Source of the DNA: Deltaproteobacteria bacterium
GTDB taxonomy: Bacteria > Desulfobacterota > Desulfobacteria > Desulfobacterales > C00003060
DNA: 64,000 nt
Reading direction: 5' to 3'
Assembly: GCA_016930875.1 (NCBI GenBank)
Contig: JAFGFW010000047.1
Coordinates: 1-64,000 of the forward strand
In this document: positions 17,259-24,287 of the stretch, one piece after another
Numbering within the stretch: position 1 is the first letter of the stretch
Layout: every line of letters starts with the position of its first letter
Translations under genes and position numbers: made by a program
Notes under the pieces: generated by a model
Database searches by the model: none
Told to the model about the DNA's origin: nothing
The model's input: the letters and a program-made list of their open reading frames with translations, nothing else

Positions 17259-17276
17259 ATGGTGGCGGTGCAGGGA
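17259..17276. repeat. Left attachment repeat of the genomic island (attL candidate)
   Basis: ATGGTGGCGGTGCAGGGA is identical to 24210-24227, the 3' end of the tRNA-Met gene, and similarity continues for eight more bases (GAACC shared). This is a duplicated tRNA 3' end without the rest of the tRNA, the usual scar of integration by a tyrosine recombinase. Confidence 0.85.
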
Positions 17277-17322: not shown

Positions 17323-18519
17323 TTATTTTTTAATTTTCTCTTTTGGTTGTAATTTGGTTGTAGTGCCTTTTGGTTTTCGTCCCGCCATCCTTTCCAGATT
17401 GTCCATAAAGATCTGTCCATAATGGCGCGTTGTGCTCTCGTTCTTGTGGCCCACAAAGGCCCCCGCTTCGGCGTAGGAATACCCCAGCTCCAAGAGTTCA
17501 CAGACAGCATGCCCCCTTGTAGCATTTTTCAATTGCAGATGAGGGAGACCCGCTTTCTTTTGAGCTGTCCTCCATCAGTAGTCAATCTCCCGGCGCGTGT
17601 ACGGCTTGCCTGTTTTTTTATTCCAGAACACAAAGGAATGGTCTAGGCGAGGAGGAACGGACTTGATCACATCCTCCAGGTACGGCGTGAGGAATGTCGG
17701 GTGATCGCTGTCGCTTTTGGCTCGGTCAATGAGGACCTCGCCATTTTCACCATCAACGAACGTGCGACGTATCTCAATGATAGGGCTTTTCCAGTCAATG
17801 TCATGGCGTTGCAAGGCCCGTGCTTCCGACTGCCTGCATCCTGTGGCCCGCAAGAACTCAAATACGGGCCTGTCGTGGGGACTCATCTGTTCAAGCGTTT
17901 TGGAAAAGTCGTCTCCGCCCATCATGTGCGTTGATCTTCTCGGCTTCGGCCTTTCCTTTTGGGCCTTTTTGCGGAGATCCTTCATTCCCGTAAAGTGAGG
18001 AACGGCGCCCTTGAGGATTTCCTCCTCTTTGCACCATCTGAGGACCCCCTCCACATCGCTCACGATGTTGAGCCGTGTCTTTGCTTTCAATGTGGAAGGG
18101 AGTTGATCATGAAACTGTCTAAAATGAATGTTCTGGATCTGTTTCACGTCCATGCCGGAAAAGAAGGGCAGGAAATACAGTTTCCAATATCGGCGTTTGG
18201 TTTTTATGGTGGAGGGAGACATCTCGTCTCTTTTGACAATTGACAGGCACGCCTTGAAATACGTTTCCTGGAGGTTTTCAAAACTATGAGGTTTCTCCTC
18301 GATCCAGTCAAAAGGACTGAATGCCTTATCATCGATGAGCGCCCTCAGATATTCAAGATGCCTGTGTGCATGGGCCTCACTTTCAAACCTGTCTCCGTTC
18401 CTGTCGAATTTGAACTGCCAGTTTTTCTTTCGCCCCGAGCCGTCCAGGCGATCCCAGGGAATCACGACATAAAAAATTGATCTCTTTTTCCCTTGGTTGA
18501 TACGAATCCACCCAAGCAT
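17323..18519 (-). pseudogene. Tyrosine recombinase/integrase interrupted by one in-frame TGA
   Basis: The reading frame encodes an N-terminal SAM-like core-binding domain and a catalytic domain with the first Arg in ATGCRQSEARAL, then meets TGA at 17577-17575. After the stop the same frame continues for about 84 codons through the rest of the active site: ATRGHAV (second Arg region), VGHKNES and the nucleophile Tyr in TRHYGQ. A single base substitution therefore explains the break. The ATG at 18519 has GGGAGGTG upstream. The gene ends about 45 bases inside the left att repeat, as expected for an island integrase. Readthrough or selenocysteine decoding cannot be excluded but no Sec element was recognised. 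Confidence 0.85.
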
Positions 18520-20600
18520 GCATACCACCTCCCTTCCAGGAGGCCCTGTACCATTTTGAGTAGGACTGGTCAACGTCATGGGCGGTCCGTCACCCGTGCC
18601 GGTTTGCTATTTTCTTTAAAAATTGTCTGTAAGTGCCCATAATCAGGATCGGAAATGCTTCCCAACCGACTATCGAAAACATTTTGAAGGTATCCTGTAA
18701 TGGCGTTTGATTTGCTTAGGTTTTCTTGCGATTTTAGCGAGTTACCATGGATTTTTTGGGTGTCCGAAAACGGAACAAGTTCCTTTTTCGGGCATTCCTA
18801 CTTGCTCCTGCTTGTCGGCTGGTCGTTAACGGAACGAGTTCCGTTTCCGACCGCCCTAAGTACTCTCTTTTCTTAATTTAGGTGGCCCAAATCGACACAG
18901 TGCCGTTTTGGGCCACCCATGGGATTATATTTTCAACCAGACTATCGTTGGGATACCCCATTTTTTGGTGGGGCTGCTATCCGAGATCTGCCCATATGTT
19001 GGCTGAACACATCCATGCTGTCCCTGTCATAGCCCAATTCAACCTTGAGAACTCCTTTGGCTTCCCGAGTCCCGTTTGTTCTGCTCTTGACCTGCTATCC
19101 GCTCTGGGTTTCTTCTAAAAGCCTGTCCGCAAAGGAACTCTACGAAAGGCTTGAACCCCGCGGTTTGAGCGTAAGCATGCCTTACAACCTTGGAGTGTGC
19201 GATGAGGCCGCCCCTGCACTTTTGGTGAGATCATGTCTGTTTTTGCCCTTGTGATGAATGAATCTGTTCTTGTCATGGAAAACACCTCTCTGCTCATGCG
19301 AATTGAGGTGCCAAGCCCCCGATCTTAAAAGGTCAATGCGATTGATCCACTCGCTATCTGAAATAGCGTCCCGGCACTGCCTGAAGACAACGCAAACAGG
19401 ATGATGCAGATCCATAATTCGCTATATGAGAACACGCCGAAACGTGAAAAAAGGAGGTCAGGACAAGCATTGCTGCTTGTCTATTTGAGTGTTGGAATTC
19501 TCTGGTTTCTGGCTACTTTGGTTGGATTTTCAATGGGTTGTCTTGTGATTGATATCTTTCTTTGTTTCGGACCTGCCTTACGAATGATTGATTCTATAAA
19601 TCCAGCATGTTGCGATTTCTAAACCCGCCTGAAAGCCGTAGCCGTCAGTTTTGTGCTTCGCCGTCAAACTGACGGCCACTACATCCTGCCTGGCATCACG
19701 CATCAATACAAAAACCTCGATCGCAATTCGCATCCTGCCTCCACTTCAATCAAAACATACTTGTAGTCCATGGTTTCCCTTGGCTGCTTTCTTACACCGC
19801 GTGCGCTGGTTGGCCTCCGCAATCAGAGCAAGTTGCCGCATGAGCCGCCACCATTTCCGAAAGCTCGAAAAGTGGCCCGTTGCCACGCTGGTCGTTCTTG
19901 GGGCGGTTGCGAGGGCGATCCCGCAAGCTCCGTTGTTCCGCGCCTATTCCGGTTATGGGGCGGACCACTGCCATTCGTGTTTGTAAATGCCGGAAAACAA
20001 CGATGGCATTCTCTATCTAAATAATAGGGAAATGGTGAAATCGGCGGGGCTCAGCTGTTTAGGAAAAGGCCGGAGATGCGACGGATTTGCAGAAAGGTGA
20101 CCAGGATATGCAAGCGAGGTGTCCTCAAGGTAACCATGTGGTGTCCTTAACGTAACCATATAGTCACCTTTGTATGCGGATTGCCGCTCCTTGCAGTTGT
20201 TGTCGTCTTACCGCTTCGTTGCGAGCCGCTGAGCCTGGACTTTGCCCAACACCTATGTGATCCACTCTGTCTCGGTTGTGATGTGCGGGTGAAATCTATA
20301 ACTTGTTAATTACGGACAGTCGCACGCGATCACGACTCATCTCTCTCTGGCGAAATTTTCCATCTCCATTTAAGATCTTGAAAATATGCCGGTTCTAGTG
20401 GCGGAGGTATAATCGGCCCATAATCAGTTTGAGCTTCGTTGTTGCCAGTCATCTCTGATGGGCTTGACAGCCCCGCCACCGGTGATACAAATAAGACAAA
20501 ACCTGAAGCTGGTGATTATCCGCCAGGAACACACTGAAACGGAGGTTCCTCCTGAAATATAGAGATAAATTGTGTTCCGCAAAAGACATCCAATATCAAG
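18520..20600. other. Gene-poor 2-kb segment of the island
   Basis: No reading frame here looks like a real protein; the longest are short, overlapping and low in recognisable motifs. It does hold several palindromes: CCGAAAACGGAACAAGTTCC and a sister GGAACGAGTTCC palindrome near 18767-18860, a perfect 11-bp stem GGTGGCCCAAA/TTTGGGCCACC at 18881-18917, and GCCGTCAGTTT/AAACTGACGGC near 19640-19675. It is probably decayed mobile DNA. Confidence 0.5.
20093..20171. repeat. Tandem plus inverted repeats resembling an IS end
   Basis: AAAGGTGAC (20093-20101) faces GTCACCTTT (20163-20171). Between them are two 22-bp tandem copies starting GGTGTCCT at 20118 and 20140 and sharing TAACCAT. Multiple terminal repeats of this kind occur at the ends of some insertion sequences, such as IS21-type elements, but no transposase gene is present. 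Confidence 0.4.
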
Positions 20601-21200
20601 ATGATGCGGAATCAGGTGTTCCGTCCGATTATAGATCGAGCCTACAAGAAGAATGACACCATGCATGACGATGGGTTGAAAGATGGCCCGTGGTTTACCA
20701 AAGGGACCTACATGAACCAAATGCTTCACTGCGGTGGACGTTACAACGGATGGGTTCAACATGCTATAGAGTGCCTCCCACCGGCCGTGCTGGACCAATA
20801 CAAAGACTCCCTCGTTTTCATAAGCACCGGTGAGTCCGATGGCTGTCGCGTCGCGCGGGCACTCTGTGAGAGCAGGGAGATCATCATTCTTTCAGAGCGG
20901 ATCCTCCCTCGAAAAGGGATGAACGAAGCCGATCCGGCGGTCCGGTACTCCATATTCGCGGTCTTTCACGAGGTCGCCCATGCATACCTGAAGCATCGGT
21001 CACCGATGTTCGACGGGATCACTCCTGAAAAAAACGCAGCCCAAGAAACAGAAGCCGATGCTTTGGCTCTCCGGTGGTATAATGATTACGTAACTGAAAA
21101 GGGGAATCCAGACCTGCCGCAGCTCACGATAAATGAGATAGAGGGAGCAAGGGAGAAGAATCAGGCAGAAATGGAGGCACATTATGAATGCTCGAACTAA
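20601..21200 (+). CDS. Putative zinc metallopeptidase (HEVAH), island gene
   Basis: A 199-residue protein with a clear zinc-peptidase signature: HEVAH at 123-127 in VFHEVAHAYLKHRS, and downstream ETEADALALRWY (149-160), which would supply the third ligand, as in gluzincins and ImmA/IrrE-like proteases. There is no signal peptide or membrane segment, so it should be cytoplasmic. The N-terminal 110 residues match nothing I recognise. The start is uncertain (ATG 20601 or 20661). It is the first of three same-strand island genes, each with an attC-like site near its end. Its substrate is unknown. Confidence 0.7.
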   Translation: MMRNQVFRPIIDRAYKKNDTMHDDGLKDGPWFTKGTYMNQMLHCGGRYNGWVQHAIECLPPAVLDQYKDSLVFISTGESDGCRVARALCESREIIILSERILPRKGMNEADPAVRYSIFAVFHEVAHAYLKHRSPMFDGITPEKNAAQETEADALALRWYNDYVTEKGNPDLPQLTINEIEGAREKNQAEMEAHYECSN

Positions 21201-21274
21201 CCGCTCCACCGGACGAACTCCAGTGCTGGTGAGCCTCCGGCCACGCGGTGAGTAGCGCCGGTGGGCGTTGGAGG
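21195..21274. repeat. attC-like imperfect palindrome A
   Basis: CTAACCGCTCCACCGG (about 21197-21212) faces CCGGTGGGCGTTGG (about 21258-21271), overlapping the stop codon of the metallopeptidase gene and ending just before the PIN-like gene. The ends resemble the inverse-core (RYYYAAC) and core (GTTRRRY) sites of integron attC sites, with mismatches. The 80-bp length is normal for attC. Confidence 0.45.
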
Positions 21275-21302
21275 ATCCGTGACAATTCACATGGAGCGTC
21301 GA

Positions 21303-21836
21303 ATGCTTTACATTCCTGTACTTCATATCGACACCAATCTTATCAACGCGCGGCAGAAGCTAGAGGCGGTAAACCAACTTGAACGTTGGTACGCGAATGG
21401 AGTCATACTGATCAATATGTCGGCCACAGCCCATGCAGAAGCACAAGCAGATGGCAATGAGTTCCGGACGGGAAAGGCCAATCAACAAATTTTTACCGCT
21501 ACCCCGGCCATCGATGATAGCGATCCAACATTCAAGCGAGTCGAAGCTGCCTTGTTCCCTCAAGGTGCTGTGGGCGAGAATCAACGAAACGATATAAAAA
21601 TTGTCTGTGAGGCGGCTAAGTACAGGGCTATCCTTGTTACTGGCGACGGTGCATCAAAGTCTCAGCCGGGAGGCATTCTTGGTAATCGCCATAAGTTGCG
21701 GGACCTTGTTCAGATCATGTCACCCGATCAAGCGGTCATCTTCGTACGTTCTAAGATTCGCGAGCGCGATGAGTTCAACGAACAGGTAGCTAGGGAGATT
21801 GGTGGTAAACTTCCGTCTTGGACGGGCAAAGATTGA
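21303..21836 (+). CDS. PIN-like domain protein, island gene
   Basis: A 177-residue protein whose start, YIPVLHIDTNLIN, matches the first strand and acidic residue (Asp10) of PIN ribonuclease domains. Further candidate acidic sites are NDIKIVCEAAK and ILVTGDGAS. PIN proteins cleave RNA with a cluster of three or four acidic residues; this pattern is present but unusual in spacing. The ATG at 21303 has GGAG six bases upstream; ATG 21291 or GTG 21279 are alternatives. No antitoxin-like gene is adjacent, so it is not an obvious VapC. Its stop is seven bases from a GCCTAAC motif. Confidence 0.65.
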   Translation: MLYIPVLHIDTNLINARQKLEAVNQLERWYANGVILINMSATAHAEAQADGNEFRTGKANQQIFTATPAIDDSDPTFKRVEAALFPQGAVGENQRNDIKIVCEAAKYRAILVTGDGASKSQPGGILGNRHKLRDLVQIMSPDQAVIFVRSKIRERDEFNEQVAREIGGKLPSWTGKD

Positions 21837-21842
21837 AACGAC

Positions 21843-21879
21843 GCCTAACAGGCCCATGGGCTTACAACCACGTTCGGAG
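21843..21879. repeat. attC-like site B (short, degenerate)
   Basis: GCCTAAC, a perfect RYYYAAC inverse-core sequence, starts seven bases after the PIN-like gene stop. A poor match to the core (GTTCGGA) lies 22 bases further. Between them is the palindrome AGGCCCATGGGCT. It is shorter than a functional attC, so it would be degenerate. Confidence 0.35.
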
Positions 21880-21882
21880 CCG

Positions 21883-22482
21883 ATGATGGAACCCGACGAA
21901 GAGAGAGTTAAGATTTACCTCGAAGGTAAGGGGCTTACGGCGGAACGCTTTTCCAAGGCGGAAACGCGCACTGGAAAGACCCCAGATTTTCGAGTATCAC
22001 GAAATGGCGAATTTTTATTCTTTTGCGAGGTCAAATCAAGCCCCGAAGATCGGTGGCTTGATGAACAATTGCGTGAAGCTTCTCCTGGTGAGCTGGCCGG
22101 TGGCGCAAGGAATGATCCAATATTTAACCGGCTTACAACGGATGTTCATGAGGCTGTGAAACAGTTTGACGCAGTAAACAAAGACCAAAAATATCCAAAC
22201 GTTCTTGCGCTCGTAAATCACGACGATATGTGCGGATTCAACGATCTATTGGGTATATTTACTGGAAACTTCTACGCCAATGATGGAACGGCTCACCCGA
22301 TTTACAGGCAGTTCTCGCATGGCCGTATTAGAGACGAAAAGGGAAGGGTCCATCTGTTTCTTTGGCTGGATGACCACAAACCTGATCGTTTATTATTCAG
22401 TCAGACAAATGAAACCCATCATAAAAAATTGTGCACCGTGTTTGGTATTAACCAGAATGAGATCAAACAAATCGGCACCTAA
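21883..22482 (+). CDS. PD-(D/E)XK-like nuclease, island gene
   Basis: A 199-residue protein with a probable nuclease core near the N-terminus: Asp35 in TPDFRV and the E-x-K of FFCEVKSS (Glu49, Lys51), with a helix before (VKIYLEGKGLTAERF). This is the classic layout of PD-(D/E)XK restriction-type nucleases. The C-terminal 140 residues are unassigned. The ATG at 21883 (or 21886) has GGAG upstream; the longer frame would overlap the PIN-like gene. It is one of three same-strand genes in the island; a DNA-targeting defence or mobile-element role is an inference. Confidence 0.65.
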   Translation: MMEPDEERVKIYLEGKGLTAERFSKAETRTGKTPDFRVSRNGEFLFFCEVKSSPEDRWLDEQLREASPGELAGGARNDPIFNRLTTDVHEAVKQFDAVNKDQKYPNVLALVNHDDMCGFNDLLGIFTGNFYANDGTAHPIYRQFSHGRIRDEKGRVHLFLWLDDHKPDRLLFSQTNETHHKKLCTVFGINQNEIKQIGT

Positions 22483-22535
22483 TAATGCCATCAACACACA
22501 CAGCAAAAGGTGGCGCGACAAAGAAGGATGATGTG

Positions 22536-22688
22536 ATGACACAGACAACAAGAACGCTCGCATTACTGTATGCGACATTGCTCCTTCTCATCGTAGCGAG
22601 TTCGGCGCATGCTCAGACTGCGCAGGAAATCGCCAAGGAGGCATTCGGCTCAACCGTTCTCCTCGTCATGGAAGATACCAGATGTTGA
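22536..22688 (+). pseudogene. N-terminal fragment of a secreted trypsin-like serine protease
   Basis: A 50-codon frame starts with a signal peptide (about residues 1-25, ending SSAHAQ) and continues EIAKEAFGSTVLLVMED, which resembles the beginning of mature HtrA/S1C-type proteases, then stops. Sequence downstream (22680-22857) encodes an unrelated-looking 50-residue tail in another frame. A deletion junction is the simplest explanation. Confidence 0.45.
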
Positions 22689-22862: not shown

Positions 22863-22922
22863 GCCTAACAATGCGCTACTCGTGCCTGGGTAGGCCCGGG
22901 CGGCCCGACCGGGACGTTGGCG
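22863..22922. repeat. attC-like site C
   Basis: GCCTAAC (22863-22869) is again a perfect RYYYAAC box, and GTTGGCG lies at 22916-22922, giving a 60-bp imperfect palindrome with a GC-rich centre. It follows the end of a short frame by five bases. From 22925 to 23249 there is no recognisable gene; a strong palindrome (CGTATGCCGCGGCATGCG) lies near 22937. Confidence 0.45.
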
Positions 22923-23249: not shown

Positions 23250-23513
23250 ATGGAACAATTAGTGGTGGAAGTTCCGGAAGGCCTTGTAAAAGAATTGGAG
23301 GCCTACAAAGGGAATCTCGGTGAAGTCCTTGCTCTGGGCCTGCGACAGATAAAAATGCAGCAGGCCCTTGTACTGTTCAGAGAGGCAGGCGTTTCCCTTT
23401 GGAAGGCAGCTCGTATAGCTGGGGTTTCCTTACGAGAGATGACCCAATACGCCGTGTCTCAGGGCCTGCGGGCCACTTGTGATGATAAAACGCTGGAAGA
23501 GGAGCTGGCGTGA
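23250..23513 (+). CDS. UPF0175-type antitoxin
   Basis: An 87-residue protein with an N-terminal strand (EQLVVEVPEGL) and a helix-turn-helix-like section (LFREAGVSLWKAARIAGVSLREM), typical of UPF0175 antitoxins that pair with DUF3368 PIN toxins. Upstream is TTAGGAGGTTGAAGGGACATG, a strong RBS. It overlaps the toxin gene by four bases (stop TGA within GTGA), so translation is coupled. The antitoxin is expected to bind DNA, repress the pair and block the toxin. Confidence 0.85.
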   Translation: MEQLVVEVPEGLVKELEAYKGNLGEVLALGLRQIKMQQALVLFREAGVSLWKAARIAGVSLREMTQYAVSQGLRATCDDKTLEEELA

Positions 23514-24028
23514 TCATCGTTAGCAATGCAGGTCCCCTAATAGCCATGGGCAAGCTGGGACAGCTTGGGCTTTTGTTGAAGCTGTATAAACAAATCCTTA
23601 TTCCCCGTGAAGTCTACAATGAAGTGGTTGTAAATGGCATCAGGATAGGAGCCTCCGACGCCTCTGCCATTAAACGTATCGTGGATAAAGGGCGCATATT
23701 GGTGGAAGACGTCATCCTTTCGGAAGAGGAGCGCCAATCCATGAATAATATTGATGCCGGGGAGGTAGAGGTTATTGCCTTAGCAAAAGAGAAAAAAGCG
23801 AACTGGGTGCTGATTGACAATGAGCACGCCCGCAAGATAGCCCGGCTGCAAGGTTTGCCCCTCAAAGGAACAATCGGAATTCTGGTTGAAGGTTTCAGAA
23901 AGGGTTTTCTCAGCCAGGAGGAGTTCGAACTCCTTATTGCCGAGATTCAGGCCCGACCGGAGCTATGGATCAGCGACCGACTTTGCGACTACGCATTGCG
24001 AAAAGTCAAAAATGAAGCCGGAATATAA
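23510..24028 (+). CDS. DUF3368 PIN-domain toxin
   Basis: A 172-residue PIN protein: VSNAGPLIAMGKL at the start (DUF3368 proteins often read SD/SN-xxPLI), conserved Glu in EVYNEVV, NIDAGEVEVIALA, and the acidic pair in WVLIDNEHARKIA. This is the toxin half of a UPF0175/DUF3368 toxin-antitoxin module, presumed RNase. It has a GTG start inside the antitoxin stop. The first conserved Asp is Asn here (SNAG), which is common in this subfamily. It sits about 180 bases from the right att site and would help keep the island in place. Confidence 0.85.
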   Translation: MIIVSNAGPLIAMGKLGQLGLLLKLYKQILIPREVYNEVVVNGIRIGASDASAIKRIVDKGRILVEDVILSEEERQSMNNIDAGEVEVIALAKEKKANWVLIDNEHARKIARLQGLPLKGTIGILVEGFRKGFLSQEEFELLIAEIQARPELWISDRLCDYALRKVKNEAGI

Positions 24029-24209
24029 CCCGCACTTCATACGTCATTCCTAAAAATGCCATCGGCAACCGCCTCGCCACTGTCTCCAATTTGGTTGTAA
24101 TTTGGATCTAGTTGAAATCACGCACGAAAAAAGGGACAACCCTTGTCTCATCCGTATGGATAAAGGATTCTCCCTTAAAAGAGTTAACTTATTGTCTTTA
24201 TAAGAAAAG

Positions 24210-24227
24210 ATGGTGGCGGTGCAGGGA
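24210..24227. repeat. Right attachment repeat of the island (attR candidate)
   Basis: ATGGTGGCGGTGCAGGGA matches 17259-17276 exactly and forms the 3' end (acceptor, CCA) of the intact tRNA-Met gene. A short sequence TTTGGTTGTAATTTGG at about 24091-24106 also recurs beside the left end (17342-17358). Confidence 0.85.
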
Positions 24228-24287
24228 CTCGAACCCCGGACACTGCGGATATGAGCCGCATGCTCTAACCGACTGAGCTACACCGCC
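24211..24287 (-). tRNA. tRNA-Met (CAU anticodon)
   Basis: A full cloverleaf of 77 nt including encoded CCA. The acceptor stem is GGCGGTG/CACCGCC, the D stem GCTC/GAGC, the anticodon stem TGCGG/CCGCA with loop CTCATAT (anticodon CAU), and the T stem CGGGG/CCCTG with loop TTCGAGT. Elongator Met is most likely; Ile2 with lysidine-modified CAU is the alternative. The 3' end is the integration site of the island to its left. Confidence 0.95.

Follow-up and report, generated by a model that had tools for sequence, protein, structure and literature searches.

The window, as the whole 64-kb stretch of DNA analysed here is called, carries an island of about 7 kb that is bounded by an 18-bp exact direct repeat, ATGGTGGCGGTGCAGGGA, and holds a trio of intact same-strand open reading frames within positions 20601-22482. 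All three frames, with their motif residues, were found where the sequence-only reading had placed them. The features of the island are the following:

17259-17276, no strand: left copy of the repeat (attR-like), with the same sequence as 24210-24227 (3' end of tRNA-Met)
17323-18579, minus strand: broken, phage-type tyrosine integrase of the island, from ORFs and Pfam
20601-21200, plus strand: gene 1, HExxH metallopeptidase-like protein of 199 aa, from the ORF list (likely start 20601)
21191-21273, plus strand: putative attC of cassette 1, partly decayed; hairpin, half-site rank 4, pattern score 29.5
21303-21836, plus strand: gene 2, PIN-domain RNase-like protein of 177 aa; homologues 68-74% identical, AF2 model
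21843-21878, plus strand: relic attC of cassette 2, with R'' GCCTAAC and R'-like GTTCGGA, middle lost
21883-22482, plus strand: gene 3, PD-(D/E)XK-like nuclease of 199 aa; homologues 44-47% identical, motif conserved
22477-22508, plus strand: left half (R'' and L'') of the cassette 3 attC, right half missing; half-site rank 1
22863-22922, plus strand: further decayed attC-like site, GCCTAACAATGCGCT ... GACGTTGGCG; 10.7 bits, half-site rank 21
24210-24227, no strand: right copy of the repeat, forming the 3' end of tRNA-Met (24211-24287, minus strand)

The earlier proposal of insertion at a tRNA was borne out, as one copy of the 18-bp repeat is the 3' end of tRNA-Met and a tyrosine integrase ORF adjoins the left copy. 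This ORF (17575-18579) is cut short, with the C-terminal portion that bears the tyrosine shifted to a different frame (17323-17532). The integrase matched Phage_int_SAM_3 (7.6e-06) and Phage_integrase (9e-05) of Pfam, and scored far under the curated cut-offs of the integron integrase models. A second direct repeat, TTTGGTTGTAATTTGG, is located just within both island ends (17342-17357 and 24090-24105) and perhaps represents arm-type sites of the integrase. A palindromic repeat of about 38 nt (GTGTCCGAAAACGGAAC...) was observed in three spaced, imperfect copies at 18753-18919, within the 2-kb stretch without clear genes that extends from the integrase to gene 1. The same island also contains a UPF0175 and DUF3368/PIN pair (Pfam; 23250-24028, plus strand), likely a toxin-antitoxin module. 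An Rfam scan around the island gave the tRNA as its sole credible match, and a promoter scan was uninformative (2 promoter-like sites vs. 3.2 expected). In a search for the empty site, 20 of 22 family genomes were found to have the gene to the right of the tRNA; the congener loci that were read lacked the left-flank gene next to it, and no empty site was demonstrated.

None of the three proteins was matched with confidence by Pfam, NCBIfam, PHROGs, or PADLOC; the last of these matched no system, giving weak single-domain matches for gene 1 and none for genes 2 and 3. In gene 1, HEVAH occupies residues 123-127 as previously described, and HExxH was kept in all three gene 1 sequences (the window and homologues L075 and L076), together with a downstream acidic EAD in both sequences reaching that far (the window and L075). 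The match of gene 1 to Peptidase_M78 of Pfam was weak (E 0.042, 14.1 bits vs. a cut-off of 22), and its Lit matches were 0.0022 (17.2 bits vs. a cut-off of 274) and 3.2e-4 (PADLOC), with 4.4e-6 for a homologue. The likeness to the phage-exclusion protease Lit and to M78-type metallopeptidases lies in the HExxH helix, with a local Lit match of 43 residues, but unlike in those families it covers the active-site helix only and falls below curated cut-offs, with no whole-protein match over them. Single-sequence structure prediction for gene 1 gave a mean pLDDT of 49.9 and no usable fold match. The ORF of gene 2 spans 21261-21836, with a likely start at 21303 or 21291, and the Asp10 that had been read in its HIDTN motif holds if the start is 21303. 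Residues D10, E46, D97, and D115 were invariant across all seven gene 2 sequences, one of them partial. A fold search with the AF2 model, built from six sequences (mean pLDDT 60.9), gave as top matches the PIN proteins 1v96 (E 4e-4, probability 1.00), HARP RNase P, Utp23, and VapC. The assignment of gene 2 to the PIN fold is thus supported by the structure search with a predicted model and by four invariant acidic residues, features expected of PIN RNases such as VapC, PH0500/1v96, and HARP-type RNase P, and the protein may accordingly be considered a putative RNase. It differs from those RNases in that the window protein has no match to Pfam PIN and no visible antitoxin partner, and it represents an unnamed family. 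The ORF of gene 3 spans 21799-22482 with a likely start at 21883, from which the Asp35 and Glu49-x-Lys51 of the earlier reading hold as TPD35 and E49-V-K51. E21, P34-D35, E49xK51, and Q94FDAVN, spaced as PD-(x)13-ExK, were invariant in all four gene 3 sequences, as in PD-(D/E)XK nucleases, but the likeness comes from the motif alone, as gene 3 lacks any family match in Pfam, NCBIfam, PHROGs, or PADLOC, and its sequence matched no solved structure.

Conservation among homologues indicates that the HExxH motif and the motifs of genes 2 and 3 are not due to chance. Of the enzyme classes suggested earlier, that of gene 2 gained backing from the fold search, and those of gene 1 (metallopeptidase) and gene 3 (PD-(D/E)XK nuclease) are probable, as judged from motif conservation. 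Compared with the window, non-synonymous divergence was 0.16-0.21 per site for gene 2 and 0.32-0.34 for gene 3, with synonymous divergence saturated (0.85-0.93 per site) in both, which places the two families under purifying selection; this estimate does not isolate the window's own branch.

The spaces between the genes hold probable remnants of integron recombination sites. A palindrome at 21195-21273, in the gap between genes 1 and 2, forms a hairpin whose ends (..CTAAC and GTTGG) suggest an integron attC site, with CTCGAAC or AACTAAC as R'', GTTGGAG as R', two extrahelical bases in the arms, and short spacers; the stop codon TAA of gene 1 falls inside the R''-like box. This was the one strong site (score 29.5) in an attC pattern scan of the whole window, and no site scoring at least 29 was obtained from a background of 640 kb of simulated sequence. 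Palindromes had been reported for the gaps in general, which proved right for this gap but not for that between genes 2 and 3, where no strong palindrome was found and R''- and R'-like boxes are present instead. The R'' of cassette 2 lies 7 nt beyond the stop codon of gene 2; its homologous counterpart in the homologue loci L023 and L025, CGACGCCCAACC, has the same offset. The attC covariance model (55 positions, built from 21 sites) had its sole match in the 64-kb window at this relic (12.2 bits, E 2.1), and the site at 22863-22922 was scored with filters off. No attC in the window passes the model unaided (best E 2.1 for 64 kb), and recognition of the sites depends on position, half sites, and homology. 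With a half-site matrix derived from 25 attC sites of other arrays, window excluded, 127,938 positions were ranked, and the positions at 22477 (gene 3 stop), 21191 (gene 1 stop), 22863, and 21843 ranked 1, 4, 21, and 61, respectively. The cassette 3 half site (17.2 bits) is inside the range of the training sites, and the TAA of gene 3 lies inside its R''. Each gene is a single ORF whose stop lies in R'' (genes 1 and 3) or 7 nt before it (gene 2), which demonstrates the anatomy of cassettes at the sequence level. Right half sites were poor at all window sites, and these poor halves, together with the weak model scores, give the sites a decayed look, with shortened spacers after gene 1, the middle lost after gene 2, and the right half lost after gene 3. 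The site at 22863-22922 may mark where a fourth cassette, since lost, once ended. Between two of the attC relics, a truncated gene start with a signal-peptide-like N-terminus was observed (22536-22688, plus strand), perhaps a remnant of a fourth cassette.

Relatives of the three genes were found as cassettes or beside attC-like sites in other genomes. Two homologues of gene 1 were detected in a sample of 395 genomes of the phylum, and that of L075 is a cassette within a complete integron, with an IntI of 437.6 bits (cut-off 265) oriented away from the array and three attC matches of weak E-values on the array strand. The stop codon TAA of this homologue forms positions 4-6 of the R'' box ACATAAC, in the same way as that of the window gene forms positions 4-6 of AACTAAC. 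Homologues of gene 2 (68-74% identity) occur in five MAGs (L023-L027), assigned to Gammaproteobacteria, Proteobacteria, Burkholderiales, Nitrosomonadales, and Desulfobacteraceae. There are attC-like sites near three or four of the five, placed after or flanking the gene in L023, L025, and L027, and four of the five genomes encode an IntI over the curated cut-off (429-477 bits), same-contig placement not being established. DNA homology of gene 2 begins at a GTTGG(GC) core site in the window, L025, and L027 (TTGGGC in L023), the sequence 5' of the core site is unrelated between loci, and the homology terminates just past the stop in a CGACGCCYAAC R'' box (window, L023, and L025). The border was not kept in L024, L026, or a copy on a Robbsia plasmid, and a clear attC was not seen at L026 or, by attC pattern scan, at the plasmid copy. 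The latter (L002, NZ_CP139169.1, 7968-8524), whose frame is disrupted near the 3' end, is flanked by IS6 copies and a Tae4 effector gene; it was the one plasmid relative of gene 2 in viral, phage, and plasmid searches, which returned no relatives of genes 1 or 3. A group II intron domain (Rfam RF02001) was observed in L025 (10683-10854), immediately following the attC that belongs to its gene 2 homologue. Neighbours of the gene 2 homologues include GmrSD (L026 and L027), Schlafen AlbA_2 (PADLOC PDC-S50), HSDR_N, and an NsnB/AAA ATPase. For instance, the Desulfobacteraceae MAG carries a cassette-like series (L027:5620-10528) in which attC-like sites separate genes for Schlafen AlbA_2, GmrSD, HSDR_N, and PIN proteins.

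Gene 3 has three homologues (L088, L089, and L090; 44-47% identity) among 390 genomes of its own class, and none was found among 395 genomes of the phylum or 369 of another class. An attC of 22.9 bits (E 0.0064) ends one base before the homologue ORF in L089, a site with arms in canonical register and the stop codon in R'' lies 3' of that in L088, and an attC-like site is located 5' of that in L090; the 3' sites in L089 and L090, read by eye, are weaker and fold poorly. Relatives of genes 2 and 1 were near attC sites or in genomes with IntI, and for those of gene 3 the evidence consists of attC-like sites. At the window trio no IntI lies beside the array, and none over the TIGR02249 cut-off was found in its own genome (97% complete assembly). 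Among 22 genomes of the family, an IntI over the curated cut-off was detected in four and matches to the attC model in 18 (E up to 0.1 per genome).

These observations bear on whether the three proteins function together. Their common strand, short gaps, and content of two nucleases and a protease within an accessory island would be consistent with a three-gene defence operon forming a single anti-phage system, as would the restriction-like cassette neighbours of the gene 2 homologues and the local Lit likeness of gene 1. However, when all three proteins were compared by tblastn with the homologue loci, only the gene defining each locus matched; the loci are few, and none of those examined unites a homologue of one gene with either of the other two. 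The five genomes carrying gene 2 homologues lack gene 1, and the genes of the window are separated by attC relics, which leaves a joint system scarcely credible. Capture by IntI via attC would also account for the shared orientation of the genes, their close spacing, and the position of their stop codons within or adjacent to R''. The suggestion that the proteins might act together was thus not supported, since homologues occur singly in different arrays with no second member of the trio, and the reading that had been favoured, of unrelated cassettes joined by recombination, was strongly supported, specifically as integron cassettes.

The degenerate state of the window attC sites and the presence of a non-integron integrase in the island could alternatively indicate that ordinary accessory genes were brought together through illegitimate recombination or the action of that integrase, with the likeness to attC arising by chance. 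This is very improbable, as half-site ranks 1 and 4 of 127,938 coincide with two of the three stop codons, the homology of gene 2 breaks at the core site, and each of the three genes has relatives at attC-like sites of other genomes. A variant of the cassette reading, in which gene 2 encodes the toxin part of a toxin-antitoxin cassette and the antitoxin has disappeared or is encoded by a small ORF that escaped notice, would agree with the PIN fold of VapC toxins and with toxin-antitoxin genes being among the commonly reported cassette functions (PMC8618304), but is unlikely, because the gene 2 cassettes of L023, L025, and L027 start at a core site directly 5' of the gene and have no conserved partner ORF ahead of it. 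With a probability of about 0.92, the trio is best read as three independent single-gene integron cassettes in a decayed, CALIN-like array without an integrase. An integron integrase would have captured each gene singly, acting on the attC of that gene, and the array would now stand alone in a small tRNA-Met island, in a genome in which no IntI was found. The lack of IntI, the decayed attC sites, and the frameshifted island integrase suggest that the cassettes can probably no longer be exchanged and have become fixed, having presumably lost their mobility.

The array resembles a CALIN in its tandem one-gene cassettes, which share a strand, end in attC-like sites, and have no IntI near them in the window. 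A CALIN is defined by at least two attC sites found by the covariance model with no IntI near, compared with which the window sites, at 12.2 and 10.7 bits, are too decayed for the model alone, and the array sits in a tRNA-Met island with a broken integrase. CALINs have been proposed to be degraded integrons (PMC9024848). Cassettes of unknown function, and relatives of gene 2 near GmrSD, Schlafen AlbA_2, and HSDR_N-type genes, recall the sedentary chromosomal integrons, such as those of Vibrio, that have been reported as anti-phage biobanks; unlike these, the window array is a three-gene relic without an integrase.

Integron cassettes have been reported as a source of anti-phage genes (PMC12409362, PMC12444791), which made up about 10% of the Vibrio cholerae cassettes in one screen (reviewed in PMC12409362). 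Together with the defence-like neighbours of the gene 2 homologues, these reports make a conflict or defence role of the three proteins plausible from context. The proteins would each work alone. One would be an RNase of the PIN type, another a nuclease of the PD-(D/E)XK type, and the third a small zinc metalloprotease, and all three are probably stand-alone factors in conflict or defence. The array is ordinary in kind, consisting of orphan, decayed cassettes, and informative in content, with three small unnamed cassette families that keep nuclease or protease motifs and were traced by sequence to the cassette arrays or attC sites of other bacteria. In addition, homology breakpoints combined with half-site models can recognise decayed cassettes that the attC model alone misses. 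More tentatively, the relic array could preserve undescribed, minimal stand-alone defence or toxin cassettes, with families of PIN RNases, PD-(D/E)XK nucleases, and Lit-like proteases carried singly by the integrons of several bacterial groups, a possibility that is rather doubtful at present. The three families are candidates for single-gene phage-challenge or toxicity assays.
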